NCBI GenBank assembly: GCA_003402345.1 | Contig: QFXH01000011.1 | Location: forward strand, 1 to 64,000 | Direction of reading: 5' to 3' | Length of the DNA stretch: 64,000 nucleotides | DNA from: Candidatus Nitrotoga sp. MKT | Lineage (GTDB): Bacteria; Pseudomonadota; Gammaproteobacteria; Burkholderiales; Gallionellaceae | In this document: positions 12,135-48,106 of the stretch, in pieces | How positions within the stretch are numbered: position 1 is the stretch's first letter | Layout: every line of letters begins with the position of its first letter | Notes under the pieces: generated by a model | Database searches by the model: none | Seen by the model: the letters and a program-made list of their open reading frames with translations, nothing else | Told to the model about the DNA's origin: nothing | Position numbers and translations under genes: made by a program

Positions 12135-12590
12135 TTAATGTAAGCGACTGGAGTCAGCCGGAGTAAGCAGGTCTTCGATTATTAAAGGATCCAAGTCTTG
12201 ACGTTGATTCCACAACACCATGAGAACGATGAGCTTGATTTTGTCTAGCGGCAAATTTTCACGGTTCAATGCGACCGCGCGGTCGAGGATCATTTCCCGT
12301 TCCACCGGTGTAATTACTTTATTTTGTTCCCAAAATGTCAGAAAACGACGTACCTCAAAGCTAATGCGCTTGATTTCCAAATCGGCATAAAAACGCTCAC
12401 CGCTATCGTTAATGGTGGACGGGTAGTTTGCTTTGTTTAATTGCTCTAGGCCAGACAGCCAGGCCAGTGCCAGATGAATATCTTCATCTTCGAATCCGGC
12501 GGCGGATAACTTGCGGGATAGCTTGTCGGAATTGGGGTAGCGGCCAGCATGAAAATAACTTTCAAATAAAAACACTAAGATGTCAAACAT
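12135..12590 (-). CDS. smg: Smg protein (DUF494)
   Basis: 151 residues. MFDILVFLFESYFHAG at the N-terminus and LSAAGFEDEDIHLALAWLSG are diagnostic of the Smg/DUF494 family, whose function is not known. The gene lies between dprA and topA, its conserved neighbourhood in proteobacteria. About 260 AT-rich bases separate it from dprA (12591-12849). I see no gene or clear terminator there, so smg may have its own promoter. Confidence 0.9.
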   Translation of the reverse strand: MFDILVFLFESYFHAGRYPNSDKLSRKLSAAGFEDEDIHLALAWLSGLEQLNKANYPSTINDSGERFYADLEIKRISFEVRRFLTFWEQNKVITPVEREMILDRAVALNRENLPLDKIKLIVLMVLWNQRQDLDPLIIEDLLTPADSSRLH

Positions 12591-32873: not shown

Positions 32874-32950
32874 GGTGATATAGCTCAGATGGTTAGAGCG
32901 CAGCACTCATAACGCTGAGGTCGGTGGTTCAACTCCACCTATCACCACCA
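32874..32950 (+). tRNA. tRNA-Met(CAT), probably elongator
   Basis: A full cloverleaf: acceptor GGTGATA/TATCACC, D-arm with AGCTCAGATGGTTAGAGC, anticodon stem CAGCA-CTCATAA-CGCTG with CAT, T-arm GGTGG-TTCAACT-CCACC, and an encoded CCA. The sequence resembles elongator tRNA-Met, lacking the GGG/CCC anticodon stem of the initiator. A CAT anticodon could also belong to lysidine-modified tRNA-Ile2. Its 3' end is the attachment site of the integrated element. Confidence 0.93.
32926..32950 (+). other. attL-like site (3' end of tRNA-Met)
   Basis: The 25 bases GGTTCAACTCCACCTATC plus ACCACCA of the T-arm and acceptor end are imperfectly repeated at 38826-38849, the other side of the integrase-bearing element. 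Tyrosine integrases of the P4 type typically insert at tRNA 3' ends and regenerate the tRNA. Confidence 0.6.
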
Positions 32951-32984
32951 AAATACTGTTTTAAGCATTCCTGAAACGTCTCAT

Positions 32985-33019
32985 AAACCCGCATTGCATA
33001 TAGCTCTGGCGGGTTTTTC
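32985..33019 (+). terminator. Rho-independent terminator after tRNA-Met
   Basis: AAACCCGC (32985-32992) pairs with GCGGGTTT (33009-33016), followed by a T run. A homologous terminator lies at 38882-38917 beyond the other att site, as if the tRNA-flanking DNA were duplicated at both element ends. Confidence 0.85.
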
Positions 33020-33063
33020 TTTGCCTGTACGTTCCTATCCGTACCATTGCAATCCTGTGTTAT

Positions 33064-33085
33064 TTGACAGTATATTGTCAGTATA
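33064..33085. repeat. Paired TTGACAGTATA repeats at the left end of the element
   Basis: TTGACAGTATA is followed directly by TTGTCAGTATA; the palindrome TGACA-N6-TGTCA is contained within. Similar tandem units occur at 38753-38780 near the right end. They lie 41 bases before the integrase ATG and could be integrase/excisionase arm sites or an autoregulatory operator. Confidence 0.5.
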
Positions 33086-33126
33086 AATCGCACTCATGAA
33101 ATCATGTACTGACAAAAGGGGAGGTC

Positions 33127-34362
33127 ATGGCACTAACCGAGATTGAAGTGAAGAAGACGAAAGCGACCGACAAGCCCCAAAGGTTAACGGACGGGCGCGG
33201 CATGTTTTTGCTGATTCACAACAATGGCGGCAAATACTGGCGCATGGATTACAGATTCAACGGTACTCGCAAAACATTGTCATTGGGTACTTACCCGGAC
33301 GTCAGCCTTGTTAAAGCCCGTGAAGACCGGGAGGATGCGCGGAAGTTGCTCAAAAACGGTATAGACCCCGGTGCGGTAAAGCAAGCGCAGAAAGCTTCCA
33401 AAATAAATCTTGCTGGTGACAGCTTTGAGGTTATCGCCCGAGAGTGGTTTGTCCTCCACGCCCCCAATTGGAAAGAAAATCATTCGAGTAAGATTATCGC
33501 GAGACTGGAGAAAGATATTTTTCCGTGGATTGGTGCGCGGCCTATTGCTGAGATTGCCGCGCCTGCATTACTGGCAACGATACGTCGAATAGAAGCCCGT
33601 GGCGCATTGGAAACGGCACACCGCGCCCTTGCCTGCTGTGGGCAGGTGTTTCGCTATGCCGTTGCAACAGGACGCGCGGAGCGTGATCCTACAGGCGACC
33701 TGCGCGGCTCACTTCCCTCCGTAAAAAGAAATAAGCACTTTGCCGCGATAACCGACCCCAAAAAAGTGGGTGAACTGATGCGCGATATTGAAGGCTATCA
33801 AGGCTCTTACGTTGTGAAGAGTGCATTCAAATTATCGCCCTTGTTGTTTGTACGCCCCGGCGAGCTTCGCAAGATGGAATGGACTGAGCTTGATTTGGAT
33901 AAAGCGGAATGGATTATTCCTGCTAACAAAATGAAAATGGGGATTACGCACATAGTCCCCTTGGCAAAACAGGCTGTGGAAGTATTGCGCGAAATACAAC
34001 CACTAACCGGACGCGGCAAGTATGTATTCCCCGGCGAACGTGATTATGACCGGCCAATGAGTGATAACGCGATCCGTTCCGCATTGCGGCGCATGGGTTG
34101 GGCGAATGATGAAATGACTCCGCACGGCTTCAGGGCAATGGCTTCCACGATCCTAGACAATATGGGATATAAGCAGGAATGGTTGGAACGTCAGCTGGCG
34201 CATGAAGAGCCAAACAAGATCAAGGCGGCATATAAACGCGAAGCGTGGAGGATGTATCTACCTGAACGCATCGCCATGATGCAGGCATGGGCGGACTATC
34301 TGGGTGGCTTGGCAGCGGGTGCAGACGTGATACCGCTACGGGCAAATACCACTGCATGGTAA
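33127..34362 (+). CDS. P4-type tyrosine site-specific integrase
   Basis: 411 residues. An N-terminal arm-binding domain (DUF4102-like: LTDGRGMFLLIHNNGGKYWR, GTRKTLSLGTYPDVSLVKAR) is followed by a SAM-like core-binding domain and the catalytic domain. The catalytic domain has the first Arg in RPGELRKMEW, the HxxR box in TPHGFRAMA, LAHEEPNKIKAAY and the C-terminal nucleophile Tyr. GGGGAGG precedes the ATG. It lies directly downstream of tRNA-Met in the same orientation, consistent with catalysing insertion there. Its stop lies in a 17-bp tandem repeat shared with the next gene's start. Confidence 0.95.
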   Translation: MALTEIEVKKTKATDKPQRLTDGRGMFLLIHNNGGKYWRMDYRFNGTRKTLSLGTYPDVSLVKAREDREDARKLLKNGIDPGAVKQAQKASKINLAGDSFEVIAREWFVLHAPNWKENHSSKIIARLEKDIFPWIGARPIAEIAAPALLATIRRIEARGALETAHRALACCGQVFRYAVATGRAERDPTGDLRGSLPSVKRNKHFAAITDPKKVGELMRDIEGYQGSYVVKSAFKLSPLLFVRPGELRKMEWTELDLDKAEWIIPANKMKMGITHIVPLAKQAVEVLREIQPLTGRGKYVFPGERDYDRPMSDNAIRSALRRMGWANDEMTPHGFRAMASTILDNMGYKQEWLERQLAHEEPNKIKAAYKREAWRMYLPERIAMMQAWADYLGGLAAGADVIPLRANTTAW

Positions 34363-34372
34363 ATACCACTGC

Positions 34373-34894
34373 ATGGTAAATACCAATTGGACACTTCAAG
34401 AAGCATATACCGCGAACGAAGCGGCCTTGGTGGAAAGCCCTGAGCGATCTTTTGCCGATCCAACATTGCCGCTTTACCAGTGGGCGGCCTTGCATGAATT
34501 AGAGCATCTACGCACTCGGCATGAGCAAGGCGAAAAGTTTGCCCTGATGTTGGCGATAAGAAAATGCGCTAATCACGACCTGATAATGCCACCCTGGGTT
34601 GTGGCTGGATACATTGCTGCATTTGACACCATCCTGAATTATCGCAGTAAAGATTGGAACGAAGTTTTTGGCAGCCCCATCCCAAAAGGTGCTCACCTTG
34701 CTGCATTGAGAAAACAGAGGAAATTAGAGTTTGCAGTGTTCAATGAAATTGTGCGCATTCGCAAGTGTAGTTTAGATCAAGCTATTGACGCTGGGTTATT
34801 TGAGAGCGTGGGTAAGCAGTTCAACATAGGCAAAACATTAGCTGAAGAATACTACTACGGGGCGGTAGCAAAAATTGGCTGGAAGCCTTCATAA
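34373..34894 (+). CDS. Hypothetical protein in the integrated element
   Basis: 173 residues with no signal or membrane segment. The helix-rich sequence includes LHELEHLRTRHEQGEKFALM, PPWVVAGYIAAFDTILNYRS, DWNEVFGSPIPKGAHLAALR and a C-terminal IRKCSLDQAIDAGLFESVGK. The last part resembles a helix-turn-helix-like pairing, but I do not recognise a family. It follows the integrase by 10 bases, so the two are probably cotranscribed, and comparable proteins often sit between int and alpA in small islands. Its ATG is the second copy of a 17-bp repeat at the junction. Confidence 0.7.
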   Translation: MVNTNWTLQEAYTANEAALVESPERSFADPTLPLYQWAALHELEHLRTRHEQGEKFALMLAIRKCANHDLIMPPWVVAGYIAAFDTILNYRSKDWNEVFGSPIPKGAHLAALRKQRKLEFAVFNEIVRIRKCSLDQAIDAGLFESVGKQFNIGKTLAEEYYYGAVAKIGWKPS

Positions 34895-35001
34895 TCAACG
34901 CTCCCGCTAATTTATAAAATATTGCGGGAATACATAGAAACAGAAAAATTGCACAGTTCGCATCGCCAGCGTTTCCGGCATAACTAGGAAAGGTAAAGAC
35001 G

Positions 35002-35238
35002 ATGCAACCTGTTACACCACAAAGCGCACCCGCGCACGTTCAACAACTCCAGACCGCATTGATACGCCGAAAAGAAGTCGAGCGGCTGACAGCGTTATCA
35101 CGATCCAGAATTTACGACCTGATGAAACAGGGCACATTCCCGAAGCCAGTGGCATTGGGTGCAATGTCCGTTGCATGGCTGGAAATTGAAATCAGGGAGT
35201 GGATAGCTTCACGCATTGCTGACAGGGCAGGTGTGTGA
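35002..35238 (+). CDS. AlpA-family transcriptional regulator
   Basis: 78 residues of the AlpA/MerR-like winged-helix type: LIRRKEVERLTALSRSRIYD, KQGTFPKPVALG and AWLEIEIREWIASRIADR. AlpA-like proteins activate excision genes of P4-like elements and switch phage satellites. A GGAAAGG about 9 bases before the ATG supports the start. It ends 3 bases before the CHC2 gene, in one operon with the replication genes. Confidence 0.9.
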   Translation: MQPVTPQSAPAHVQQLQTALIRRKEVERLTALSRSRIYDLMKQGTFPKPVALGAMSVAWLEIEIREWIASRIADRAGV

Positions 35239-35241
35239 ATC

Positions 35242-35625
35242 ATGCAAAAACAAACCACGAACACAAAAGAACTGGGGGCGGTTGCTGCCACGCAACGCAC
35301 CCCCACAAACCACGCTGCCCACTCTATCAAAAAAAGGTGGAATTACAAGGGTGGTTTTGACCGTGCGAAATTGCCGCACCCTGCTGATTACTTCGCACAG
35401 CAAGGGCTAAAGCTGTCAGGCGGCGGCGAGTGGAAAAACGCAATTTGTCCTTTTCACGATGACCGCACACCAAGCCTGAGAGTACGCCTTGATACAGGCG
35501 GTTTTCGCTGCATGGTATGTGGCGCGCATGGAGGCGATGTTCTGGCATTCCACCAGCAACGCCATGACCTGAGTTTCAAACAAGCCGCGCAACAATTAGG
35601 CGCATGGGTAGGGGGTGCGCGATGA
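35242..35625 (+). CDS. CHC2 zinc-finger protein (primase N-terminal module)
   Basis: 127 residues. A DnaG-type CHC2 zinc-binding motif CPFHDDRTPSLRV...FRCMVCGAHGGDVLAF follows a basic N-terminal 60 residues. In most primases this module is fused to Toprim; here it is a separate polypeptide whose TGA overlaps the ATG of the Toprim-helicase gene (ATGA). It probably assembles with that protein to start element replication. Confidence 0.88.
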   Translation: MQKQTTNTKELGAVAATQRTPTNHAAHSIKKRWNYKGGFDRAKLPHPADYFAQQGLKLSGGGEWKNAICPFHDDRTPSLRVRLDTGGFRCMVCGAHGGDVLAFHQQRHDLSFKQAAQQLGAWVGGAR

Positions 35626-37823
35626 ATACTCCGACCATTGAAGCTATCCAAAAAGCGGCGCATACCATGACCGCATCGGCACGCAAACAAGGCTATTCGC
35701 TTGACCCACGGCACGGCGGGGCGATTCACTACTACACCGCACCGGATGGTTCAATTATGTTTGCGCGGCTTCGCTTGAAACATCCTGATACCGGGGAAAA
35801 ATGGATAAGGCCATTACGCCGTGATGTTTCAGGCGTTTGGTGTGAGTTGAAAGCCCCTGAGTTTGAAGGCGGCGCGCCGCTCTACAATCTGCACCAGCTA
35901 TGCAATCCGGCGCGGCAATCTGAGCGCGTGATCCTAGTCGAAGGTGAATACAAGGTAGATATGTTGGCACTTCGCAGCATTATCGCCACCACCAGCGGCG
36001 GGGCGCAATCGGTAGATGCGGCAGACTGGCAACCATTAGCAGGACGTAACGTGCTGATATGGCCAGACAACGACAAGGCAGGGTTTGAATACGCACAACA
36101 CGCGGCGGACAAGCTGCGTGCGTTAGGTTGTGAGGTTGCCTTTATTGACGTGGCGGCTTTGAATTTGCCACCGAAGGGTGATTGCGTGGACTGGCTTAAA
36201 GCCTTTCATCAACAGCACGGGCACAAGGCAATGGCGGCGGATATATGGGTATTGCCAGTTATTGAGCGTGCACCGGAAGAAATCGAAGCCGTAGGAAACG
36301 TTTTAAGCCCTTTAATTAATGCGGGGGAGGCTATCCCCTACCCGGAAACCGCTGCACAGCCTGATATACCACCGGCACAGACAGACGATGAAAAAATCCA
36401 GTGGTTAGCGTCACTCAAACCGCTGGAATATGACCGCGTGAGAAAAGAGCAAGCAACAGCGTTAGGGGTACGACCTGGCACGCTTGATGGAATGGTGAAA
36501 GCTGCGCGATCCGATGAAAGCGAAGCTGACAGGTTGCCATTCGCTGAAGTCGAGCCGCACCCCGAGCCGATAGACCCGGCGCAATTGCTGAATGAGGTAT
36601 CAGATACCATCCAACGGTTTATCGTGCTGGACATTGAGCAAGCACACGCGGCTTGTTTGTGGGTTGCACTCACTTGGTTTATTGACGTGGTGGAAGTTGC
36701 CCCGCTGGCGATCATTAACGCACCGGAAAAATCTTGCGGAAAAACTCAATTGCTGACAGTGCTGGGGCGCATGGCATACCGGCCATTACCAGCATCTAAC
36801 GCTTCAGCATCGGCACTATTCAGAGCCGTGGAATCGTGGAAGCCCACGATTCTGATAGATGAAGCTGATACCTTTTTCCGCGATAACACAGAGCTTCACG
36901 GCATGGTTAACGCCGGGTATCTGCGCGATGGCTTTGTATTGCGCAGTGAGGCCGTGGGTGACAGCTTCGAGCCACGCATGTTTTCGGTATTCAGTGCCAA
37001 GGCATTGGCAGGCATTGCACTTGAAAAACACTTACCTGATGCGACCATGAGCCGTGGGGTGGTGTTTAATCTGCGCCGGAAACTATCCCATGAATCGGTT
37101 AGCAGATTGCGCCATGCCGACAGAGGGTTATTCACTGGCATTGCTGAAAAGTTGGCACGCTTCGCGGCTGATTACTCGCAACAGGTTAGACAGGCGCGCC
37201 CGTCATTGCCGGATGCGCTTTCAGACCGCGACCAAGACAATTGGGACGGCTTGCTTGCGGTTGCATCATGCGCGGGTGATGAGTGGTTAGACTGGGCAAT
37301 GAAGGCGGCTTTGAAGCTATCCGGTGCGGGTGAAAAAACGGTAAGCACGGGCAATGAATTGCTGGCTGACATTCAGCACGTTTTCGAGATCAAGCGCATA
37401 ACCAAGATCAGCACGGCTGATTTAATAGCGGCACTTTGTGATGATGATGAAAGCGCATGGGCAACTTACAACAGGGGCAAACCGATAACCCCGCGACAGG
37501 TTGCCAAGCAATTGGCGGCGTATGGGATAGCATCAAAAAATATCCGGCTGGGTGCGTATGAAACGCCAAAAGGTTTCGAGTTGTCGCAGTTTTTGGATGC
37601 TTTCGTGCGTTATCTTGTTACCCCCCTGAATTTGCCGCCACACCGCCACAAATCGCTAGAAGCCAATAAGCACGGGGTTTTAGACGTGGCGGACAATCCG
37701 CCACAGAAAACAACCCGCCACAATCCCGCCACACCGGAAGCCCCGCCGTTATTGGGTTGTGGCGGTGTGGCGGATAAAACACCGATTTTAGGGATGGGTG
37801 AAGAATGTGAGATTGAAATATGA
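35622..37823 (+). CDS. Toprim/P-loop replication protein (DUF3631-type primase-helicase)
   Basis: 733 residues from the ATG at 35622 that overlaps the CHC2 stop. Domains in order: Toprim region (RVILVEGEYKVDMLALR, NVLIWPDNDKAGFEYAQ), a linker, an ATPase with Walker A in NAPEKSCGKTQLLTVLG and Walker B in PTILIDEADTFF, and a DUF3631-like C-terminal region (ISTADLIAALCDDDESAWAT, GKPITPRQVAKQLAAYG). It should prime and unwind DNA for autonomous element replication. The last 65 residues are His/Pro/Thr-rich because the DNA carries iterons there, so the coding end may double as the origin. Confidence 0.88.
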   Translation: MNTPTIEAIQKAAHTMTASARKQGYSLDPRHGGAIHYYTAPDGSIMFARLRLKHPDTGEKWIRPLRRDVSGVWCELKAPEFEGGAPLYNLHQLCNPARQSERVILVEGEYKVDMLALRSIIATTSGGAQSVDAADWQPLAGRNVLIWPDNDKAGFEYAQHAADKLRALGCEVAFIDVAALNLPPKGDCVDWLKAFHQQHGHKAMAADIWVLPVIERAPEEIEAVGNVLSPLINAGEAIPYPETAAQPDIPPAQTDDEKIQWLASLKPLEYDRVRKEQATALGVRPGTLDGMVKAARSDESEADRLPFAEVEPHPEPIDPAQLLNEVSDTIQRFIVLDIEQAHAACLWVALTWFIDVVEVAPLAIINAPEKSCGKTQLLTVLGRMAYRPLPASNASASALFRAVESWKPTILIDEADTFFRDNTELHGMVNAGYLRDGFVLRSEAVGDSFEPRMFSVFSAKALAGIALEKHLPDATMSRGVVFNLRRKLSHESVSRLRHADRGLFTGIAEKLARFAADYSQQVRQARPSLPDALSDRDQDNWDGLLAVASCAGDEWLDWAMKAALKLSGAGEKTVSTGNELLADIQHVFEIKRITKISTADLIAALCDDDESAWATYNRGKPITPRQVAKQLAAYGIASKNIRLGAYETPKGFELSQFLDAFVRYLVTPLNLPPHRHKSLEANKHGVLDVADNPPQKTTRHNPATPEAPPLLGCGGVADKTPILGMGEECEIEI
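37635..37773. repeat. CCGCCACA iteron cluster; candidate replication origin
   Basis: Five direct CCGCCACA octamers (37635, 37643, 37698, 37715, 37726) and two inverted ones (37758, 37766) lie in 139 bases. One degenerate inverted copy is at 37686. The abutting pair 37635-37650 and the abutting inverted pair 37758-37773 make a perfect 16-bp inverted repeat. The cluster sits within the 3' end of the replication gene, where phage-inducible islands keep their origins. Confidence 0.65.
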
Positions 37824-38281
37824 TGTACGCCCAACAAGTGATTGACAATGCCGCTGGGGAATTTAACTCCCCGGCGCTGGCGATACTGGCACGTTGCGAA
37901 CAGTCAGGCGTATATCTTCGGGTGGAAGGCGAACACTTAAAGGTTAGAGGCAACCGCGAAACAATCGCGGCATGGCAAGCGATGATTGGGCGACACAAGC
38001 CGGAAATAATCGCGGCACTGACCGGGCAACCATATCCCACGAAAACCGCTGCAAACGATAGCGCGACACTGGCAGCGGACTATCAAGAGTTGACCGCCTG
38101 CATAATTGAACTTTGCCAGCTTGCCGGGTATGCGGATAAGGCACGGGAACGGATGTTTGCGGCACGGCGCAATCTATACCCTTTCCAGTATGCAACAGAG
38201 TGCGCTTATTTTCGTTGGCAGGTAGTCCGCGCAAGGGCTGGTGCGTATTGGCATAACGATGTACTGAGGGCTGGAATATGA
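37820..38281 (+). CDS. Hypothetical protein with a TubC-N-like N-terminus
   Basis: 153 residues. SGVYLRVEGEHLKVRGNRET and WQAMIGRHKPEIIAALTG resemble the TubC-N docking fold (helix-turn-beta-hairpin) found at the start of many small proteins in mobile elements. The C-terminal half (ARERMFAARRNLYPFQYATE, FRWQVVRARAGAYWH) is unfamiliar. The ATG overlaps the TGA of the replication gene. It probably belongs to the replication/regulation operon. Confidence 0.7.
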   Translation: MMYAQQVIDNAAGEFNSPALAILARCEQSGVYLRVEGEHLKVRGNRETIAAWQAMIGRHKPEIIAALTGQPYPTKTAANDSATLAADYQELTACIIELCQLAGYADKARERMFAARRNLYPFQYATECAYFRWQVVRARAGAYWHNDVLRAGI

Positions 38282-38383
38282 GCTGCACTGCGGCAAGGGG
38301 GGAGTTAAGCTCTACAGCTTCCTTATCCCTAGACCGTATGCTTTCCCACGCGCAGATTTTTTCCCTTTTTAAATGGAATTCAA

Positions 38384-38704
38384 ATGGCAGGTGTTAAAGG
38401 TAAGAGCGGAGGCGCACGACCCGGAGCCGGTAGACCAAAGAACAAACCCGCAAAACTCAACATGCCAGCGACAAAAGACCCGCTTGTTTTTCTGCTATCG
38501 GTTATGAATGATCCTGCCTTAGATGCAAGGCTGAGGATTGTCGCTGCAACGGCTGCATTGCCATACGTTCATGAACGAGCTGGCAACGTACAAGGCGGCA
38601 AAAAAGATAGGCGGGCAGAAGCGGCACAAGAAGCCGGAAAAGGAAAGTTCGCCCCGTCAAAGCCGCCGAAGCTCAAACTTATAAACATAGCTGGGACTGA
38701 CTGA
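38384..38704 (+). CDS. Terminase-small-subunit-like protein
   Basis: 106 residues. KGKSGGARPGAGRPKNKPAK, then DPLVFLLSVMNDPALDARLR and IVAATAALPYVHE, then a charged Lys/Arg/Pro-rich tail. This pattern is seen in phage terminase small subunits, which recognise DNA for packaging. No large terminase, portal or structural gene is nearby. In a phage satellite such a gene would redirect the helper's packaging machine. The function is inferred from sequence pattern and context. The SD is weak (GGA). About 100 bases before it have no gene. Confidence 0.6.
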   Translation: MAGVKGKSGGARPGAGRPKNKPAKLNMPATKDPLVFLLSVMNDPALDARLRIVAATAALPYVHERAGNVQGGKKDRRAEAAQEAGKGKFAPSKPPKLKLINIAGTD

Positions 38705-38752
38705 AGAATACCCTCTCGCTGAATCCTTTATCTAACCCCTAGTCGCTAATAA

Positions 38753-38780
38753 TTGACAGTATATTTGACGGTATATTTGA
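38753..38780. repeat. Tandem TTGACRGTATAT repeats at the right end of the element
   Basis: TTGACAGTATAT and TTGACGGTATAT are adjacent, followed by TTGA. They match the paired units at 33064-33085 on the other side. They lie about 45 bases inside the right att-like repeat, a position suitable for integrase or excisionase arm sites. Confidence 0.5.
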
Positions 38781-38825
38781 AATATGAAAAACACAGAATA
38801 AATAACAGCGTGGCTTCCAAGGCAT

Positions 38826-38849
38826 GATTCAATTGCACCTATCCCACCA
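38826..38849 (+). other. attR-like imperfect copy of the tRNA-Met 3' end
   Basis: GATTCAATTGCACCTATC plus CCACCA matches the tRNA-Met 3' end with three substitutions and one deleted base. It lies 5.9 kb from the tRNA, after the last element gene, and is followed by a terminator like the one downstream of the tRNA. The divergence suggests an old insertion or a non-identical attachment site. Confidence 0.55.
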
Positions 38850-39038: not shown

Positions 39039-40496
39039 ATGTTCGAACAAGCTTTTAAAAATATCGACGACGTCCTTTGGAAAGAGGCAGGTTGTGCCAG
39101 CGAGCTGGACTACACCGAGCAGACCTCCTGGCTGCTGTTCCTGAAATTTCTGGACAGCCTTGAGCAGGACAAGGCCATGGAGGCGGGGCTGGAGGACAAA
39201 AAGTACACCTTCATCCTCGACGCGCCCTACCGCTGGGAAAGCTGGGCCGCGCCCAAAGGAGCCGATGGCAAGCTCGACCACAACAAAGCGCTGACCGGTG
39301 ACGACCTGCGTGACTTCGTCGACCGCAAACTCTTTCCCTACCTGCACGGCTTCAAGCAGAAGGCCAGCGGGCCGAATACCCTCGAATACAAGATCGGCGA
39401 AATTTTCGGCGAGATCAAGAACAAGATCCACAGCGGCTACAACCTGCGCGAGATCATCGACCACATCGACGAACTGCGATTCCGCTCGCAAACCGAAAAG
39501 CACGAACTGTCGCACCTGTACGAAGCCAAGATCAAGAACATGGGCAACGCGGGTAGGAACGGCGGCGAATACTATACCCCGCGCCCGCTGATTCGCGCCA
39601 TGGTGCAAGTGGTGCAGCCAACAATCGGCGAGCGCATCTATGATGGTGCCTGTGGCTCGGCGGGCTTTCTGTGCGAGGCATTCGACTACCTCAAGGCCAA
39701 GCCCGGGCTTACCACCAGCAACATCAAGACGCTGCAAGAGCGCACCTTCTACGGCAAGGAAAAGAAGTCACTGGCCTATGTCATCGCGATCATGAACATG
39801 ATCCTGCACGGTATCGAAGCGCCCAACATCGCCCACACCAACACACTGGCCGAGAACCTTGCCGACATTCAGGACAAAGACCGCATGGACGTGATCCTGG
39901 CCAATCCGCCCTTCGGCGGCAAGGAGCGCAAGGAAGTCCAGCAGAACTTCCCCATTCGCACCGGCGAAACGGCTTTTCTCTTCCTCCAGCACTTCATCAA
40001 AATGCTCAAGGCCGGCGGCCGCGCCGCTGTGGTCATTAAGAACACCTTTCTGTCCAACACCGACAATGCTTCGGTGAGCCTGCGCAAACTGCTGCTGGAA
40101 AGTTGCAACCTGCATACCATCCTCGATTGCCCCGGCGGCACCTTCCAGGGCGCGGGCGTGAAAACCGTTGTGCTGTTCTTCGAGAAAGGCGCACCAACCA
40201 GAAAGGTTTGGTACTACCAGCTCGACCCCGGCCGCAATATGGGCAAGACCAACCCGCTCAACGACGCCGACCTCGCCGAGTTCATCGCACTGCAAAAGAC
40301 CTTCGCCGACTCGCCCAAGAGCTGGTCTGTTGATACCCATGCCCTGAGCGCAGCCGAAGGGTACGATCTGTCGGTGAAGAACCCGAACGGTGGCGAGGAA
40401 ATCGCGCATCGCAGCCCGCAGGACATCATGGACGAAATCGCCGCATTGGATGCCGAGAGCGCGGAAGTGCTGGCAAACATTAGGTTGCTGCTATGA
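39039..40496 (+). CDS. hsdM: Type I restriction-modification methyltransferase subunit
   Basis: HsdM methylates adenine within the site recognised by HsdS. 485 residues: N-terminal helical domain (FKNIDDVLWKEAGCASELDY, TSWLLFLKFLDSLEQ), SAM-binding motif I YDGACGSAGFLCEAF, and catalytic NPPF in VILANPPFGGKER near residue 290. GGEYYTPRPLIRAMV precedes motif I. The TGA overlaps the hsdS ATG. The gene is more GC-rich than the neighbouring element, which suggests a separate acquisition. About 330 bases before it hold only the att and terminator signals already listed and a promoter region. Confidence 0.96.
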   Translation: MFEQAFKNIDDVLWKEAGCASELDYTEQTSWLLFLKFLDSLEQDKAMEAGLEDKKYTFILDAPYRWESWAAPKGADGKLDHNKALTGDDLRDFVDRKLFPYLHGFKQKASGPNTLEYKIGEIFGEIKNKIHSGYNLREIIDHIDELRFRSQTEKHELSHLYEAKIKNMGNAGRNGGEYYTPRPLIRAMVQVVQPTIGERIYDGACGSAGFLCEAFDYLKAKPGLTTSNIKTLQERTFYGKEKKSLAYVIAIMNMILHGIEAPNIAHTNTLAENLADIQDKDRMDVILANPPFGGKERKEVQQNFPIRTGETAFLFLQHFIKMLKAGGRAAVVIKNTFLSNTDNASVSLRKLLLESCNLHTILDCPGGTFQGAGVKTVVLFFEKGAPTRKVWYYQLDPGRNMGKTNPLNDADLAEFIALQKTFADSPKSWSVDTHALSAAEGYDLSVKNPNGGEEIAHRSPQDIMDEIAALDAESAEVLANIRLLL

Positions 40497-41695
40497 AGTC
40501 GGGGTGGCAAACCAAAAAGCTCGGCGACCTCTTGGAAGTTCAGAACGGCTATGCCTTTAGCAGCAAGGATTACTCGGAGTCTGGGCATTTTGTGATGCGC
40601 ATTGGCAACGTACAGAATAGCTTCATTACCCTAACTGACCCGAAATTCATTAGCCTTCCTGCTAATAGTGCTCTACAAAGATTCGTGTTGTCGGAAGGCG
40701 ACATCTTGGTTTCGCTCACTGGAGATGTCGGACGGGTCGGCGTGATTCAGAAGAAACACCTTCCGGCAGCCCTAAACCAGCGCGTAGCCAGAATCACAAT
40801 CCGCAATAGCTCACCGGCCTCCAGAGAGTTTCTATTATTCTTCCTTTACTCAGATTTGTTTCGAGAAGTACTCACAGGTGCTGGTCATGGCGCTGCACAG
40901 CAAAATGTCTCAACAAAGGATCTCATTGAAATTCAGTTACCCGTCCCTCCGCTTGCCGAACAGCAGCGCATCGTCGGCATACTCGACGAAGCGTTCGACG
41001 GCATCGCCGCCGCCAAAGCCAACGCCGAAAAAAACCTTCAAAACGTCCGCTCCCTGTTCGAAAGTCATCTGCAATCCGTTTTCACCCAGCGTGGCGAAGG
41101 GTGGAGAGAGAAGCGATTGGATGAAGTTTGCACTTTTAGCAGTGGCGGTACCCCGTCTAAAAGCAATAGCGGCTATTGGAGCGGCGAAATACCTTGGATT
41201 TCTGGACGTGATATGAAATCAACACAACTGTTCGATTCGCTGTTGCATATTTCTCGATCAGCAGTTGACGAGTCTTCAACGCGTATGGCGCCAGCAGGAA
41301 CGCTCCTAATTCTTGTACGCGGTATGGGCTTGGCACATGGTGCTCAAATCGCCGAGCTAATGGTTCCCTGTGCATTCAACCAAGACATCAGAGCAATCCA
41401 CCCTGAACCAGGCCTGATCCCTCGGTATCTCCTTTTCGCACTACGAGACCGAATTAATTCAAGCAACAACGTCTTGAGTAGTGCTGCTCATGGAACACTC
41501 AAGATAGACTCAGACGAACTAAAGAGGGTGATGATTCCTGTCTCTTCGCGCGGTCATCAACAGAGAGTTGTGGCTACGATTGACTCCCTTTCAGAAGAAA
41601 CCCAACGCCTCGAATCCATTTACCAGCGCAAGCTCGCCGCCCTCGACAACCTGAAAAAATCTCTGCTGCACCAGGCATTTTCCGGCGAGTTATGA
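40493..41695 (+). CDS. hsdS: Type I restriction-modification specificity subunit
   Basis: 400 residues with the two-domain repeat of HsdS. Target-recognition domain 1 opens with WQTKKLGDLLEVQNGYAFSS and ends in QQRIVGILDEAFDGIAAAKA. Domain 2 opens with WREKRLDEVCTFSSGGTPSK and ends in QQRVVATIDSLSEETQRLES. The conserved spacer helices follow each domain. The last 30 residues (YQRKLAALDNLKKSLLHQAF) recur as a broken copy at 42895-43005. The DNA target cannot be predicted from sequence by eye. ATGA overlap with hsdM indicates coupling. Confidence 0.95.
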   Translation: MKSGWQTKKLGDLLEVQNGYAFSSKDYSESGHFVMRIGNVQNSFITLTDPKFISLPANSALQRFVLSEGDILVSLTGDVGRVGVIQKKHLPAALNQRVARITIRNSSPASREFLLFFLYSDLFREVLTGAGHGAAQQNVSTKDLIEIQLPVPPLAEQQRIVGILDEAFDGIAAAKANAEKNLQNVRSLFESHLQSVFTQRGEGWREKRLDEVCTFSSGGTPSKSNSGYWSGEIPWISGRDMKSTQLFDSLLHISRSAVDESSTRMAPAGTLLILVRGMGLAHGAQIAELMVPCAFNQDIRAIHPEPGLIPRYLLFALRDRINSSNNVLSSAAHGTLKIDSDELKRVMIPVSSRGHQQRVVATIDSLSEETQRLESIYQRKLAALDNLKKSLLHQAFSGEL

Positions 41696-41783
41696 ATGAT
41701 GATGTGTATAGAAAACCTAGTTTTTTAACCATATCCATCATGACGTGATAAGAAAATGCAATTTTTTATACATGTTATCTCTG

Positions 41784-41816
41784 ACATGATAAGATAATTG
41801 AAATTTCTTATCATGT
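41784..41816. promoter_or_regulatory. Inverted repeat upstream of fic; candidate operator
   Basis: ACATGATAAGA (41784-41794) and TCTTATCATGT (41806-41816) are perfect 11-bp arms separated by 11 bases. A partial copy, ATGACGTGATAAGAAAA, lies about 45 bases upstream. The repeat ends 18 bases before the fic GTG, where a bound repressor would block transcription or initiation. The C-terminal winged-helix-like region of the Fic protein makes autoregulation plausible. Confidence 0.55.
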
Positions 41817-41834
41817 TTTTATAGGGCAAGCGGT

Positions 41835-42908
41835 GTGATTGCTTTACAGATACCTTCAAATGCCAGCCTGGAAGTTAAGGCAATCTGGCAAAGCCTGGCC
41901 GAGGCGCATCGCTATTTGGCCGAGTTGAAGGGCTTGTGTGAATCCTTGCCCAACAGCGCGATTCTGTTGGATACGCTCTCCATCCAGGAGGCGAAAGATA
42001 GCTCTGAAATAGAGAACATCATCACCACGCATGACGAGCTCTATGCCTACGACCAAAGCAGTTCGGCCTCACCTGCTGCCAAGGAAGTACAAAACTACAT
42101 CGCCGCCTTAAGGGTGGGGTATCAGGACGTGCGTGACTCCGGCTTGATTCGATTGAGAACGATTTTGCGCGTGCAGGAAGAAGTCGAACAAAGCAATGCT
42201 GGCTTGAGGAAACTGCCGGGCACGGTACTTAAAAACCAGACTACGGGCGCAATTGTGTATGAGCCGCCACAAGATGCTGTGGTGATTGAGAAGCTGATGG
42301 CGGATTTGGTTGATTTCATTCATGCCAATGATGAGCTGGACCCCATATTACGCATGGCGATTGTGCATCACCAGTTTGAAAGCATCCATCCGTTTTACGA
42401 TGGCAATGGGCGCACCGGGCGTATTCTCAATTTGCTGATCTTGCAGCGCGAAGGCTTGCTGGATTTGCCTGTGCTGTATTTAAGCCGTTATATCACCTCT
42501 ACTAAAAGCCAGTATTACCAGCTGCTCCAATTAACAAGGAAAACCAATAACTGGGTAGATTGGTGCGTGTATATCGTGAAGGGTATCGCTGTTACTGCCA
42601 AAAGTGAAATCAAGCTGATTAAGAATTTGCGGGAGTTGATGCAAACAACCAAGCATCGCTTACGCGCTGAACTGCCTAAAATCTATAGCCAGGATTTGCT
42701 GAATAATCTATTTCGCCATCCTTACACCAAGATCGAGTTTGTGGAAAAAGGTTTAGGTGTTTCGCGCATTACCGCGGCAAAGCATTTGGATACGCTTGCT
42801 AAAAATGGCTTTGTGGAAAAGAAAAAAATTGGCCGCAAAAACTTTTATATCAATCGGCCATTATTTGAACTCTTGACGCAGATTACTTTAGACGATGAAC
42901 GAAGCTGA
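41835..42908 (+). CDS. Fic-domain protein (class II, with inhibitory motif) and C-terminal wHTH
   Basis: 357 residues. The Fic motif HPFYDGNGRTGR lies near residue 192, with the catalytic His. The N-terminal helix DSSEIENIITTHDEL carries the (S/T)xxxE(G/N) inhibitory element typical of self-inhibited Fic AMP-transferases. The C-terminal 80 residues (KIEFVEKGLGVSRITAAKHL, LAKNGFVEKKKIGRKNFYIN) form a winged helix. The start is GTG with AGGG upstream. The gene sits inside the hsd operon between hsdS and hsdR. It could act as a conditional toxin or regulator; the target is unknown. Confidence 0.93.
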   Translation: MIALQIPSNASLEVKAIWQSLAEAHRYLAELKGLCESLPNSAILLDTLSIQEAKDSSEIENIITTHDELYAYDQSSSASPAAKEVQNYIAALRVGYQDVRDSGLIRLRTILRVQEEVEQSNAGLRKLPGTVLKNQTTGAIVYEPPQDAVVIEKLMADLVDFIHANDELDPILRMAIVHHQFESIHPFYDGNGRTGRILNLLILQREGLLDLPVLYLSRYITSTKSQYYQLLQLTRKTNNWVDWCVYIVKGIAVTAKSEIKLIKNLRELMQTTKHRLRAELPKIYSQDLLNNLFRHPYTKIEFVEKGLGVSRITAAKHLDTLAKNGFVEKKKIGRKNFYINRPLFELLTQITLDDERS

Positions 42909-43005
42909 AATCCAACGCCTCGAAATCATTTGCCAGCACAAGCTTGCCGCGCTTGATGCGTTGAAAAAGTCGCCGCTGCATCAGGCTTTCAGTGGTCATA
43001 TATAA
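42895..43005 (+). pseudogene. Detached hsdS 3'-end copy
   Basis: A 36-codon frame from ATG 42895 (overlapping the fic 3' end) reads IQRLEIICQHKLAALDALKK and SPLHQAFSGHI. It parallels the end of hsdS (QRLESIYQRKLAALDNLKKS, LLHQAFSGEL). The first 19 bases also resemble the first bases of hsdR (ATGAACGAAGC). It is too short to be a working specificity subunit and is best read as a scar of recombination. Confidence 0.7.
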
Positions 43006-43016
43006 GGAGTCAATTC

Positions 43017-43877
43017 ATGCCGATTCAGCCAGCCCTTTTCGAGACCCACGAAATCCGCCGCGTGTACGACGAAGCCAGCGAAATCTGGTGGTTCTCGGTG
43101 GTTGACATCATTCAGGTGCTGATCCAACAGCCCGACTACCAGAGGGCTAGGAAATACTGGAAAGTGTTGAAGGGCCGCTTGGCCAAAGAGGGCAGTGAAC
43201 TGGTAATAAACTGTTACCAGTTGAAAATGACGGCCAGTGACGGCAAACAACGTCTGACCGACGTGGCCACCGCCGAAACCCTGCTGCGCCTAGTGCAGTC
43301 CGTGCCCAGCCCGAAGGCGGAGCCGATCAAACTGTGGCTGGCCAAGGTCGGTTACGAGCGTATGCAGGAAATGGCCGACCCGGCGTTGTCGTTGGATCGC
43401 GCCCGCGAGACCTGGCAGAAGCACGGGCGCAGCGAGAAATGGATTCAGCAGCGCATGACCGGGCAGGAAACGCGCAACAAGCTGACCGATTACTGGACAA
43501 ACCACGACATCCAGAAAGGCAAGGAATTCGCCATTCTCACCAACATAATCCATCAGGAATGGTCGGGCGTGAGCGTGAAGGCGCACAAGACGATAAAGGG
43601 TTTGCAAGATCACAATCTGCGCGACCATATGAGCGAGGCGGAACTGATTTTCACCGCGCTGGCGGAGTTGTCAACGCGTCAGATTGCTGAAACGGATGAG
43701 GCAACCGGAATGGCCGAAAACAAAGTGGCCGCCACGAAGGGTGGGGCGATTGCCAAGCAGGCACGCCAAGCACTGGAAGCCAAGACCAACAGGCCGGTGG
43801 TGTCCGCCGACAATTTTCTGCCGCCCGGCAAGGCATTGCGTCCCAAGGCTATGAAGAAGGATGGGGAGAAGAAATGA
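43017..43877 (+). CDS. Bro-N domain protein in the hsd operon
   Basis: 286 residues. The N-terminal 110 residues resemble a Bro-N (BRO family, antirepressor-like) domain: IRRVYDEASEIWWFSVVDII, QPDYQRARKYWKVLKGRL and LTDVATAETLLRLVQSVPSP. The remainder is helical and ends in a basic tail. AAGGAG lies 7 bases before the ATG, and its TGA overlaps the hsdR ATG. BRO-type genes are common beside type I hsd loci. A role in transcriptional or stress control is inference. It could instead be a phage-derived antirepressor captured by the island. Confidence 0.75.
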   Translation: MPIQPALFETHEIRRVYDEASEIWWFSVVDIIQVLIQQPDYQRARKYWKVLKGRLAKEGSELVINCYQLKMTASDGKQRLTDVATAETLLRLVQSVPSPKAEPIKLWLAKVGYERMQEMADPALSLDRARETWQKHGRSEKWIQQRMTGQETRNKLTDYWTNHDIQKGKEFAILTNIIHQEWSGVSVKAHKTIKGLQDHNLRDHMSEAELIFTALAELSTRQIAETDEATGMAENKVAATKGGAIAKQARQALEAKTNRPVVSADNFLPPGKALRPKAMKKDGEKK

Positions 43878-46228
43878 ACGAAGCCGAAACCCGCGCCGAA
43901 CACATTGACCCCGCCCTTGCGGCGGCGGGCTGGGGCGTGGTCGAAGGCAGCCGCATCCGCCGCGAGTATCCGATCACGCTCGGTCGTATTGAGGGCCACG
44001 GCAAGCGCGGCAAAGGGCTCACCGCCGATTATGTGCTGGAGTATCGCAACACCAAGCTGGGAGTGGTTGAGGCCAAAGCGTGGGGCAAGGCGCTGACGGA
44101 GGGCGTGGGACAGGCCAAGGATTACGCGGGCAAGCTGGCCGTTCGTTTCACCTATTCCACCAATGGTCAAAACATATACGGCATCGACATGCACACCGGC
44201 ATTGAGGCCGAATTGGCGCGCTACCCGACGCCGGAGGAATTGTGGAACCGCACTTTTGCCGCTCATAACGTTTGGCGCGAGCGCTTTGCGGCCGTGCCGT
44301 TCGAGGATCGGGGCGGCTACTTTCAGGGGCGCTATTACCAGGACATCGCCATCGAGCGTGTGCTTGAGGCCATCGCCGACCAGAAGCAGCGCATTCTGCT
44401 GACGCTGGCGACCGGCACTGGCAAGACCTTCATCGCCTTCCAGATCGCGTGGAAACTATTCCACAGCCGCTGGAACCTGAGCGACCGGAAGACGGAGAGC
44501 GAACCGACGCGGCGGCCGCGCATCCTGTTCCTGGCCGACCGCAACATTCTGGCCGATCAGGCGTTCAATGCCTTTTCCGCCTTTCCCGAAGACGCGCTGG
44601 TTCGCATCGCCCCGGAGGACATCCGCAAGAAGGGCAAAGTACCGAAGAACGGCAGCATTTTCTTCACCATCTTCCAGACCTTTATGGCTTCGGCAGGCAC
44701 AGTTACCGGGCCTTCAGCGGTCCCCGAGCCTGTCGAGGGGTATTTCGGCGAGTATCCGCCGGATTTCTTCGACTTTATAGTCATCGACGAGTGCCATCGG
44801 GGCGGGGCGAATGACGAAAGCAACTGGCGCGGCATTCTCGACTACTTTGCTCCCGCCGTGCAGCTTGGCCTGACTGCCACGCCCAAGCGCCGCGACAACG
44901 TGGATACCTACGCCTACTTCGGCGAGCCGGTGTTCGTCTACTCGCTCAAGGACGGCATCAATGACGGTTTTTTGACGCCGTTCCGGGTGAAGCAGATTTC
45001 CACGACGCTCGATGAGTATGTCTATACGCCCGATGACACGCTGGTCGAGGGCGAGATCGAGGCCGGCAGGCGCTACGAGGAAGCCGATTTCAATAAGATC
45101 ATCGAGATTAGGGAGCGGGAGAAGAGGCGGGTCGAGATATTCATGTCGCAGATCGACCAGCGGGAGAAAACGTTGGTCTTTTGCGCGAACCAGGCGCATG
45201 CGCTGGTGATACGGGATCTGATCAATCAGACGAAGAGCAGCATTGATCCGAATTATTGTCAGCGGGTGACTGCCGATGATGGCGCGTTGGGAGAACAAAA
45301 CCTGCGTGATTTTCAGGATAACGAGAAGACGATACCCACTATCCTGACCACTTCGCAGAAGCTCTCGACCGGTGTGGATGCCCGCAACGTGCGCAACATC
45401 GTGCTGTTGCGGCCTATCAATTCGATGATCGAGTTCAAACAGATCGTCGGGCGCGGTACGCGACTCTATGACGGCAAGGACTACTTCACGATCTACGATT
45501 TCGTGAGGGCGCACCATTATTTCAACGATTTGGAATGGGACGGCGAGCCGCTTGAGCCGGAACCAAGAGAAGCCGTGCCGGTTCTCGCGCCACGAGCGCC
45601 CATTGAGGCGCAAGAACCGGCGGTGGAATACCAGGCACGACAGAAAATCAAGATTAAACTCGCCGACGGCAAGACGCGCACCATTCAGCACATGATGGTA
45701 ACCAGCTTCTGGCACCCGGACGGCACACCGATGTCGGCGCAACAGTTCATGGAAGCGCTGTTCGGCAAGCTGCCTGAATTTTTCAAGGACGAAGAAGAGC
45801 TGCGCGCTTTGTGGGGCGCGCCGGATACGCGCAGAAAGCTGCTGGAGGGGCTGGCCGAAAAAGGCTTCGGCAAGGATCACTTGGCCGAAATGCAGAGGAT
45901 CATCGACGCGGAGAAGAGCGACCTATTCGACGTGCTGGCCCATGTGGCCTATGCCCTGGCCCCGCTCACTCGCGAAGAGCGCGCGGCCCAGGCGATGGCA
46001 TTCATCAGTACCCACTTCAACAGCAAACAACAGGTCTTTCTCGATTTCGTGCTCTCGCACTACGTCAGCGTCGGCGTGGAGGAGCTCGATTCGGCAAAGC
46101 TGAAGCCGCTGCTGTGCCTGAAGTGTCACGATTCAATTGTGGATGCTGTGGCTGATCTTGGCAAGCCGGAAGAGATCGGCAAGGTGTTCAGCGGCTTTCA
46201 GAAATACCTTTACCAGGAAGCGGCTTGA
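43874..46228 (+). CDS. hsdR: Type I restriction endonuclease R subunit
   Basis: The motor and nuclease subunit. 784 residues, the short EcoEI-like class. The N-terminal PD-(D/E)xK nuclease has TADYVLEYRNTKLGVVEAKA. The translocase has Walker A in LATGTGKTFIAFQIAW, the DECH box in FIVIDECHRGGA, LGLTATPKRRD and the helicase C motif IEFKQIVGRGTRLYDGKDY. The last 200 residues match the EcoEI R C-terminal region. A VPEPVEG stretch near residue 282 reflects a REP-like palindrome in the coding DNA. With hsdM and hsdS it should form an active type I system. Confidence 0.95.
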   Translation: MNEAETRAEHIDPALAAAGWGVVEGSRIRREYPITLGRIEGHGKRGKGLTADYVLEYRNTKLGVVEAKAWGKALTEGVGQAKDYAGKLAVRFTYSTNGQNIYGIDMHTGIEAELARYPTPEELWNRTFAAHNVWRERFAAVPFEDRGGYFQGRYYQDIAIERVLEAIADQKQRILLTLATGTGKTFIAFQIAWKLFHSRWNLSDRKTESEPTRRPRILFLADRNILADQAFNAFSAFPEDALVRIAPEDIRKKGKVPKNGSIFFTIFQTFMASAGTVTGPSAVPEPVEGYFGEYPPDFFDFIVIDECHRGGANDESNWRGILDYFAPAVQLGLTATPKRRDNVDTYAYFGEPVFVYSLKDGINDGFLTPFRVKQISTTLDEYVYTPDDTLVEGEIEAGRRYEEADFNKIIEIREREKRRVEIFMSQIDQREKTLVFCANQAHALVIRDLINQTKSSIDPNYCQRVTADDGALGEQNLRDFQDNEKTIPTILTTSQKLSTGVDARNVRNIVLLRPINSMIEFKQIVGRGTRLYDGKDYFTIYDFVRAHHYFNDLEWDGEPLEPEPREAVPVLAPRAPIEAQEPAVEYQARQKIKIKLADGKTRTIQHMMVTSFWHPDGTPMSAQQFMEALFGKLPEFFKDEEELRALWGAPDTRRKLLEGLAEKGFGKDHLAEMQRIIDAEKSDLFDVLAHVAYALAPLTREERAAQAMAFISTHFNSKQQVFLDFVLSHYVSVGVEELDSAKLKPLLCLKCHDSIVDAVADLGKPEEIGKVFSGFQKYLYQEAA
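44722..44740. repeat. REP-like palindromic insertion inside hsdR
   Basis: CCCCGAGCCTGTCGAGGGG forms an imperfect hairpin. It is translated in frame as PEPVEG within the linker before the DECH box, the peptide signature of REP sequences that have entered genes in many proteobacteria. Confidence 0.55.
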
Positions 46229-47127: not shown

Positions 47128-47481
47128 ATGAAAAAAATCGAAATTAAATTCACCATAACGCTTGATGGTAAAAAAGTACCTGAGAAAATCGATTGGAGCT
47201 CATCTGATATTCAGGAACAAACTACAGCCAACGCAATAATGATTGCCCTGTGGGATGCCGATGCGGTAAATACGCTACGCATTGATTTATGGACCAAAAA
47301 TATGATGAAAGAGGAGATGAAAAAGTTTTATCATCAAAGCCTTTTATTCATGGCAGATAATTTTGAGCGTGCTACCGGAGATGTGGAAACCTCGCGAGCG
47401 ATGCGAAATTTCGCCCAAATGCTGGGCGAAAAAATGAATCTGGTTATGGAAAATAAATTTGTTGCCTTAAAAAATAATTGA
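47128..47481 (+). CDS. GldC-like protein, copy 1
   Basis: 117 residues. EIKFTITLDGKKVPEKIDWS, IMIALWDADAVNTLRIDLWT and KNMMKEEMKKFYHQSLLFMA follow the pattern of gliding-motility protein GldC, a small cytoplasmic protein best known in Bacteroidetes. No other gld gene is in the window. A paralog follows at 47765, about 50% identical by eye. The function outside Bacteroidetes is unknown. Acquisition from that phylum is possible but unproven. Confidence 0.7.
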   Translation: MKKIEIKFTITLDGKKVPEKIDWSSSDIQEQTTANAIMIALWDADAVNTLRIDLWTKNMMKEEMKKFYHQSLLFMADNFERATGDVETSRAMRNFAQMLGEKMNLVMENKFVALKNN

Positions 47482-47764: not shown

Positions 47765-48106
47765 ATGACGAAATCTGAAATTAAATTTACGGTCACTCTT
47801 GATGACAACATGGTGGCAGAAAAAATAGACTGGAGCGCTTCTGACGCAAAAGAGCACAACACAAGTAAAGGAGTCATGATTTCAGTTTGGGACGCTAAGG
47901 AAAGCAATACAATGCGGATTGATTTCTGGACCAAGGACATGATGGTTGATGAAATGTGTCAGTTTTATCACCAGACTTTTTTATCAATGGCTGATACTTT
48001 CGAACGTGCTACCGGCGAAATGGAAGCGGCGAAATCAATGCGAAATTTTGCCCAGCAGTTTGGCGAAAAAGTGAATCTGTTTTCGAAACAAAAATTTGAT
48101 GCTTAA
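47765..48106 (+). CDS. GldC-like protein, copy 2
   Basis: 113 residues. EIKFTVTLDDNMVAEKIDWS, VMISVWDAKESNTMRIDFWT, KDMMVDEMCQFYHQTFLSMA and FERATGEMEAAKSMRNFAQQ parallel copy 1 over the whole length, so the pair arose by duplication. An AAGGGATT precedes the ATG at about 8 bases. The two copies differ mostly at surface-type residues. Their neighbourhood gives no pathway hint. Confidence 0.7.
   Translation: MTKSEIKFTVTLDDNMVAEKIDWSASDAKEHNTSKGVMISVWDAKESNTMRIDFWTKDMMVDEMCQFYHQTFLSMADTFERATGEMEAAKSMRNFAQQFGEKVNLFSKQKFDA

Follow-up and report, generated by a model that had tools for sequence, protein, structure and literature searches.

The window analyzed here, a stretch of 64,000 nucleotides on contig 11 of the 2.7-Mb genome (G000) of a nitrite-oxidizing bacterium of the Candidatus Nitrotoga type, contains at the 3' end of a tRNA-Met gene a unit of 5,900 bp (positions 32936-38835) which, to judge from its sequence, is very probably a phage satellite of the cos type that encodes a terminase small subunit (TerS) of its own. 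An earlier note on this DNA had already proposed a compact satellite of about 5.9 kb at this tRNA; the nature of the element is decided by two features that the note missed, namely a phage-type cos region and an array of iterons within the primase gene. Three points strengthen the satellite reading: a phage cos lies directly 5' of terS, the iterons are located within a gene, and TerS proteins of other families fill the same slot in relatives of the element.

The seven genes are all open reading frames (ORFs) in one orientation (Table 1): Int, orf173, AlpA, CHC2, Toprim-DUF3631, TubC_N-like and TerS. This is the gene list of the earlier note, including the split CHC2 and Toprim-helicase genes, and the family matches agree with it. 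The similarity of the penultimate protein to TubC_N stays under the cut-off of that family; a counterpart of this protein adjoins DUF3631 in several relatives. No family was recognized for orf173 in Pfam, PHROGs, NCBIfam or PADLOC. The gap between int and alpA, where orf173 is located, differs among relatives: it holds orf191 and a pair of genes that, from their sequence, we take to be HigBA-like in locus L066, and DUF6387 in L067. PADLOC searches with nine proteins (orf173, the TubC_N-like protein, Toprim-DUF3631 and six genes from the int-AlpA gap of other loci) yielded as best matches NsnC (0.024) for the TubC_N-like protein and a DnaG-like DRT model (2.6e-4) for the primase.

In agreement with the earlier note, the seven proteins (ORFs of at least 50 aa) showed no match to structural, lysis or conjugation families of Pfam, PHROGs or NCBIfam; nor did the names Sid, Psu or delta, the markers of P4-like satellites, occur among these matches. 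Profiles of our own, built from viral contigs for the terminase large subunit (TerL), portal and major capsid protein, gave no match on the element either, with the proviso that other TerL families could escape them. The general attributes of a satellite are thus visible in the sequence: a discrete, integrase-bearing insertion, no TerL, portal, capsid or tail match of its own, and a packaging signal and packaging gene that are shared with phages.

The packaging end of the element

The last gene, which ends 120 bp before the att repeat, had been described as terminase-small-subunit-like, and this assignment holds. The families matched, phrog_641 and phrog_18735 (5.3e-4), are terminase families, and tblastn with this protein matched 32 phage records, several of them annotated as terminase small subunit. 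In viral contigs, an ORF of at least 350 aa is found within 3 kb downstream of 76 of the 84 homologous TerS ORFs; among the downstream ORFs that were checked, three were TerL and one next ORF was a portal protein, and the gene order in phage Bcep176 is TerS-TerL-portal-protease-capsid. The possibility that the protein is a misnamed basic protein was rejected by the phrog_641 match, the tblastn result and the viral-contig context, despite the lack of a match in Pfam or NCBIfam. Searches of the PDB returned nothing for the single sequence and, for a two-row profile, a condensin chain at 0.11 as the best match.

The 98 bp 5' of terS have a layout in common with the region that precedes terS in phages. 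A cos profile of 38 phage and prophage regions (44 rows before dereplication, with the window, L063, L177 and L178 dropped) has its sole match in the 64 kb here, at E values up to 10, with an E value of 3e-12 for the window alone and 5.4e-11 in a larger set; in a control of 990,736 bases of reversed sequence, the best E value was 3.7. One row of this profile, L283, is a prophage that appears below among the matches by construction. The cos table as a whole comprises 49 rows, that is, 45 viral TerS ORFs, taken only with a recognized start and 130 nt upstream, and four references; a strict cos motif matches 23 of these rows. Both ends of the Bcep176 record read CGCACGTTCC, exactly at the matching place in the cos layout, and therefore mark a 10-nt overhang, by alignment with which CGTATGCTTT is the predicted overhang of the element. 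The overhang of HK97, according to the available text of PMC11331095, is a 10-nt 3' overhang, and the ends of HK97 show, by eye, the same left half as the cos region. The HK97-type features recognizable in the element are a putative 10-nt overhang site after GACC, a G-run and an AAGTCT-like box on the 5' side, and a box on the 3', TerS side. Equating this right box with the mapped TerS site of HK97 (+15 to +29) was dropped, as the spacing differs and the TerS proteins have no detectable relation; the ends of the CF127a and BUCT603 records were uninformative with respect to cos (partial record, ends not at cos). With the packaging site readable from the sequence, satellites become findable by their cos instead of by annotated genes.

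When genomes were searched with a cos model of 29 of the 37 listed rows, 17 places were found in 9 of 41 relatives, all within the genus of the window, and 25 places in 21 of 399 genomes of the order; with four places common to both sets, this makes 38 distinct ones. These counts are lower bounds, since, with strict filters, no more than 94 candidates per genome (relatives) or nine (order) were scored and the order is represented by a sample; the nhmmer profile, at 1e-3, failed to recover three of the places (L345, L346 and L347). Six of the 38 have prophage-type surroundings, with TerL or portal 3' of cos and, in each case, HNH 5' of it; at 15, Int and AlpA lie 5' and there is no TerL, and one has Int only. 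At 30 of the 32 places lacking TerL, the sequence extends for 2.5 kb or more beyond cos on its 3' side, and no TerL was found at any of the 17 Nitrotoga places (one of them, L346, being only 24 bp from a contig end). TerS was matched in 3 of the 41 relatives and in 15 of the 399 genomes of the order; of six surroundings fetched from the order set besides the window, four (L280-L283) contain TerL and portal, L284 does not, and L064 is a remnant. In L284 (G147:C11, 9400-9729), the TerS of the same family has no TerL or cos match near it, and an integrase lies on the other strand of the region.

Iterons and the DUF3631 relatives

The array of seven iterons at the 3' end of the primase gene is the place of highest 8-mer repetition in the window (stretches of 220 bp taken every 50 bp). 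None of 500 synonymous-codon shuffles of the gene reached seven copies, the maximum being four. Other iterons occupy the same place in other loci, namely GTAGCGGA in L013, on contig 10 of the same genome (five copies), and in L274 (six), CCGCAACA in L014 (four) and CCGTAACA in L015 (five), with mixed iterons in L014 and L066. Near the end of the primase gene, an 8-mer is present at least four times in 11 of 31 DUF3631 loci, and over all 31 loci CCGNNACA reaches a density of 8.5 per kb in the 3' region, compared with 0.49 per kb elsewhere in the gene. Iterons agree within a locus at 0.396, compared with a permuted mean of 0.166 (0 of 5000; 12 loci, kinship not being corrected for). From these data we infer that the array is a replication origin. 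The two relatives in one genome, with CCGCCACA in the window and CCGCTACA on contig 10, may thereby keep their replication apart. This second relative, L013 (G000:C10:52000-71000, 6452-12537), resembles the window element in AlpA (94%), CHC2 (89%) and primase (67%), whereas the integrase is only 25% identical and the iterons are different.

Relatives of the DUF3631 protein at E values of 1e-60 or better are present in 16 of 399 order genomes, G000 included, and 14 loci belong to named genomes, among them Methylotenera, Nitrosomonas, Paraburkholderia, Pusillimonas, Ferriphaselus and Nitrospinaceae. The set of 31 loci leaves out L068, where a contig end cuts the gene, and counts L014/L065 and L015/L073 once each; several loci are on short contigs. 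No TerL or portal profile match was seen in the fetched flanks of any of the 31. Phage records include none that covers 80% of the primase, and in the viral-contig scan, of which the best 80 of 208 relatives were kept, the matches listed were confined to residues 4-254 (best E 4e-21, 38%). As a side observation, the record of Pseudomonas phage Phipami28 (PV029746.1, L287) has ABC-transporter and other chromosome-like genes near a DUF3631 homologue and might not be a phage genome but a contig from a chromosome or a satellite.

The slot that follows DUF3631 and TubC holds a Terminase_2 TerS in L267 (PF03592 1e-20, phrog_51 3e-31), a TerS of the HTH type in L271 (phrog_7344 4.7e-13), one of the Sf6 type in L078 (PF20901 3.7e-29), a weak TerS match in L076 (phrog_309 1.7e-4), and an HK97 capsid protein (PF05065 2.7e-35) with HNH in L017. 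Matches to the cos profile occur in three DUF3631 elements that lack a TerS match (L268, L017 and L015). One of 75 ORFs of the slot region matched a tape-measure family; we take it to be L274 11617-13299.

Several observations concern this slot. L017 (G007:C31, 4386-13822) is a Nitrotoga DUF3631 element in which Int, AlpA, TubC, the HK97 major capsid protein and HNH are joined by a cos just before a tRNA-Met. A family of proteins of about 200 aa (Table 1) adjoins cos in eight loci without a TerS match, twice at the terS position 3' of cos; the two members that were scanned, from L015 and L052, had no Pfam match, and that of L015 reached only 0.083 in PHROGs. L063 (G016:C6, 3753-10470) is a small element of the genus with Int, an AlpA-like protein, DUF5681, cos and a 55%-identical TerS, ending near tRNA-Thr; DUF3631 was not matched in it. 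Its sister L337, also at tRNA-Thr, has the 200-aa protein, and the two share stretches of 76-86% nucleotide identity, which makes this protein a candidate TerS substitute.

Taken together, we lean slightly towards a broader reading, in which the element would be one of a set of undescribed, widespread betaproteobacterial cos satellites of HK97-like phages, with unrelated devices replacing one another in the terminal packaging slot, namely an own TerS of several families, the 200-aa protein at the terS position, or a capsid protein with HNH, while the in-gene origin with its shifting iterons would form a second axis of variation.

Integration site and competing explanations

The tRNA-Met(cat) gene at the left end is complete according to ARAGORN. 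The bounding repeats, which had been described as resembling tRNA 3' ends, are real though imperfect (32925-32943 and 38825-38843, 84% identity, spacing 5900), with an 8-nt core, CACCTATC, common to both ends at 32936 and 38836. The empty sites sought in related genomes exist: in G009, tRNA-Met is directly followed by sequence that aligns to the right flank of the window, and in G007, G008 and G009 the gene after tRNA-Met encodes HsdM (94-99% identity), which G009 has in the form of two pieces. As tRNA-Met runs into type I restriction-modification (R-M) genes in these three congeners, the element ends at the right att repeat; the R-M block is an old flank and the element a clean insertion. Accordingly, the earlier note's alternative of a block within a larger prophage or integrative and conjugative element failed, and the idea that the element carries the Fic and type I R-M genes (39039-46228) as cargo was rejected. 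A 16-bp repeat, with one copy at the left end and two at the right (three matches in 64 kb, versus 0.03 expected), would provide integrase arm or excisionase sites.

Table 1. Features of the element in the window and members of the 200-aa protein family in other loci
Feature	Position	Strand	Basis or remark
tRNA-Met (cat), integration target, 3' end = attL	32874-32950	+	ARAGORN; same tRNA in empty-site genomes
Left att core CACCTATC	32936-32943	+	repeat comparison and empty-site alignment
16-bp repeat, left end, putative integrase arm or Xis site	33061-33076	+	repeat search
Tyrosine integrase, 411 aa	33127-34362	+	PF13356, PF22022, PF00589, phrog_1
orf173, no family	34373-34894	+	in int-AlpA gap
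AlpA regulator/excisionase	35002-35238	+	PF05930 1.1e-21, phrog_2790 5.5e-14
CHC2 zinc-finger primase protein	35242-35625	+	PF01807 1.5e-14
Toprim + DUF3631 primase-helicase	35604-37823	+	PF12307 2.7e-42; Toprim_2 3.6e-4, just under cut-off
Iteron array, 7 x CCGCCACA/TGTGGCGG, in 3' end of primase gene	37635-37773	+	putative replication origin
TubC_N-like protein, 153 aa	37820-38281	+	PF18563 8.3e-4, 19.9 bits, under 26-bit cut-off
HK97-type cos region	38286-38383	+	nhmmer profile without window 5.4e-11; genome search 6.0e-11
Predicted 10-nt cos overhang CGTATGCTTT	38335-38344	+	alignment with Bcep176 record ends
Terminase small subunit, 106 aa, last gene	38384-38704	+	phrog_641 8.5e-20; tblastn to annotated TerS
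Two overlapping 16-bp repeats, right end, putative arm sites	38750-38777	+	starts 38750, 38762
Right att core in displaced tRNA-Met 3' fragment, acceptor-stem part with one-base deletion	38836-38843	+	empty-site alignment
200-aa family	L337 9143-9748; L338 11736-12338; L339 12216-12815; L340 8238-8837		
200-aa family, continued	L052 5252-5854; L015 5597-6370; L360 2019-2672; L362 9932-10609		

Several further observations concern this locus and its surroundings. At the same tRNA-Met, G003 carries a remnant (L049, G003:C52, 870-2697) with an element-like left end followed by a cos region and then HsdM, and G006 carries a different satellite-like island (L052, G006:C1, 884-10140) with an 80%-identical integrase, a KilA-N protein and cos, in which neither TerS nor DUF3631 was matched. 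The R-M locus is conserved at 89-99% in HsdM and HsdR among the congeners that have it, while HsdS is only 34-66% identical and Fic either 97% or about 30%, a pattern that reads as swapping of specificity genes. The locus also contains a Bro-N protein and a SoFic-like Fic; in PADLOC, the Fic flank gene matched SoFic at 3.5e-110. Farther on, two neighboring paralogues without assigned function (47128-47481 and 47765-48106, 59% identical) are conserved side by side in G003 and G009.

Based on the parts of the element and on the work on PICIs (phage-inducible chromosomal islands) and PICMI, the following life cycle can be envisaged. Upon infection of the cell by an HK97-like cos phage, AlpA and Int would excise the element, and the primase-helicase would start replication at the iterons, yielding concatemers. 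The satellite TerS would then bind its own cos and bring the TerL of the helper (and its HNH nuclease) there, so that satellite DNA could fill the heads of the helper; since an HK97-like genome is far longer than 5.9 kb, this DNA would probably be packaged as multimers. The element would then reintegrate at tRNA-Met of a new host.

A number of points weigh against this picture. We infer excision, replication, packaging and transfer here from sequence alone. The attR is degenerate: compared with the empty site, it has mismatches and lacks one base, so that excision could be impaired. The phrog_9 TerL was found neither in G000 nor in 14 of the 15 congeners searched, G008 having two fragments; the helper thus does not appear as a resident phrog_9-type prophage. 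The element suggests that Nitrotoga is met repeatedly by an HK97-like phage that does not reside in the searched genomes. The own cos of HK97 scores only 0.19 with the profile, and its TerS has no detectable relation to that of the element. Among the 31 DUF3631 loci, the TerS family of the element is seen in the window copy only, L013 has no TerS or cos match, and 9 loci have no 8-mer above two copies near the gene end; moreover, the majority of these loci have neither a recognized TerS nor a cos profile match, which argues against a simple rule for the slot. Finally, 16 of the 38 cos places lack a recognized Int or AlpA and could be remnants.

The most durable alternative is that the element, a satellite by origin, is now a dead chromosomal relic, which is a special case of the satellite reading and overlaps with it in probability; we regard it as unlikely. 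The attR defects and the lack of a phrog_9-type helper TerL in the genome would fit such a relic, but every gene is open, and the cos and the iterons look intact. Besides, attP may be the source of those attR mismatches that lie 5' of the core, and deletions in the tRNA fragment of attR are, in the available text of PMC10111431, reported for PICIs and not for prophages; the base lost here, being a single case, proves nothing as to a PICI-type attR.

Considerably less probable is a remnant of an HK97-like prophage that has been reduced to its integration, replication and cos-terS end. Such a remnant would account for a cos-terS adjacency like that in phages, for the cos-only remnant at the same tRNA-Met in G003, and for the 16 cos places just mentioned. 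It would, however, be expected to show HNH 5' of cos, as the six prophage-type loci do, where the element has a DUF3631-TubC module as in other elements without TerL or portal; all its genes are open and its ends clean, the 15 Int+AlpA+cos elements without TerL would each have had to decay independently, and the primase is not covered to 80% by any phage record. An integrated plasmid-like element in which TerS and cos would be passengers that play no part in packaging is the least probable reading, since its plasmid-like primase and iterons, and the majority of DUF3631 relatives without a recognized TerS or cos of this type, are outweighed by TerS families of different descent in the same slot (L267, L271, L078) and by the same cos near the same end in L268, L017 and L015, neither of which a passenger model predicts.

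Relation to known satellites

The satellite reading places the element among systems that are known, in the available texts, from enterics, pasteurellae, vibrios and Pseudomonas as far as Gram-negative bacteria are concerned. Satellites with TerS and satellites with cos are described there, and cfPICIs encode both terminase subunits, whereas no satellite lacking TerL with both an own TerS and a cos was met in the accessible parts of the open-licence literature. No paper that connects DUF3631 with a satellite was found in the open-licence full-text literature, and the matches listed from that literature include no such satellites in Betaproteobacteria, Burkholderiales or Nitrosomonadales; both are weak evidence of absence.

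The PICMI of Vibrionaceae, as far as the available text of PMC10803314 goes, are similar in size (about 6 kb; PICMI115, 6,110 bp), in the order int-extra gene-alpA-primase, in variable genes (iolg/icg) at the place that corresponds to the int-AlpA gap, and in the absence of capsid remodelling genes. They differ in having DUF3987/DUF5906 primases and a fis site, with no terS homologue or cos identified and random DNA ends in the particles, where the element has DUF3631, tRNA-Met, TerS and cos; as the published model is not matched in primase family and site, the element is not a PICMI. The cfPICIs share with the element packaging genes including TerS, but additionally possess capsid, portal, protease, TerL and HNH genes (PMC10690885, available text), none of which is present here. 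Conversely, the HK97-like cos phages with a phrog_641 TerS (Bcep176 and relatives) have the cos region and TerS in common with the element, along with HNH, TerL, portal, head and tail genes that it lacks. Among SaPIs, compared by description, pac types encode TerS and cos types carry the cos of the helper as alternative solutions (PMC5052747, available text), whereas the element combines TerS and cos; the capsid protein with cos in L017 recalls Ccm of cos SaPIs (PMC8569155, available text). The tmRNA islands of Pseudomonas (I55), also compared by description, are likewise int and AlpA elements moved by a phage as satellites, but are much larger, with other core genes and a jumbo-phage helper (available text of PMC12595487).

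The closest comparison in function is with the Gram-negative PICIs of the EcCICFT073 type, and here the PICI-like label of the earlier note stands, while it does not extend to the primase. In the available texts (PMC6092414, PMC10111431), these islands are compact, with int, AlpA, primase and an origin, frequently at tRNA sites, and the classical kind lacks structural genes; EcCICFT073 uses cos packaging, and some members have terS. The element likewise has int, alpA and primase in one orientation, and, for comparison with the PICI origin next to pri/rep, it has as a predicted origin the iterons that lie within the primase gene, towards its 3' end. The primase families that PMC10111431, in its available part, groups under PICIs (a clustering label, not a formal definition) are Pox_D5, D5_N, DUF927, Prim-Pol and Prim_Zn_Ribbon; that of the element, CHC2 with Toprim and DUF3631, falls outside them. 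The packaging solutions differ as well: EcCICFT073, according to the available texts (PMC6092414, PMC6739421), has a lambda-like cos and no TerS, its Rpp retargeting the TerS of the helper, whereas the element has an HK97-type cos, its own TerS, and a CHC2 and Toprim-DUF3631 replicase with iterons inside the gene. The element thus bears on how satellites choose between a TerS of their own and the retargeting of that of the helper.

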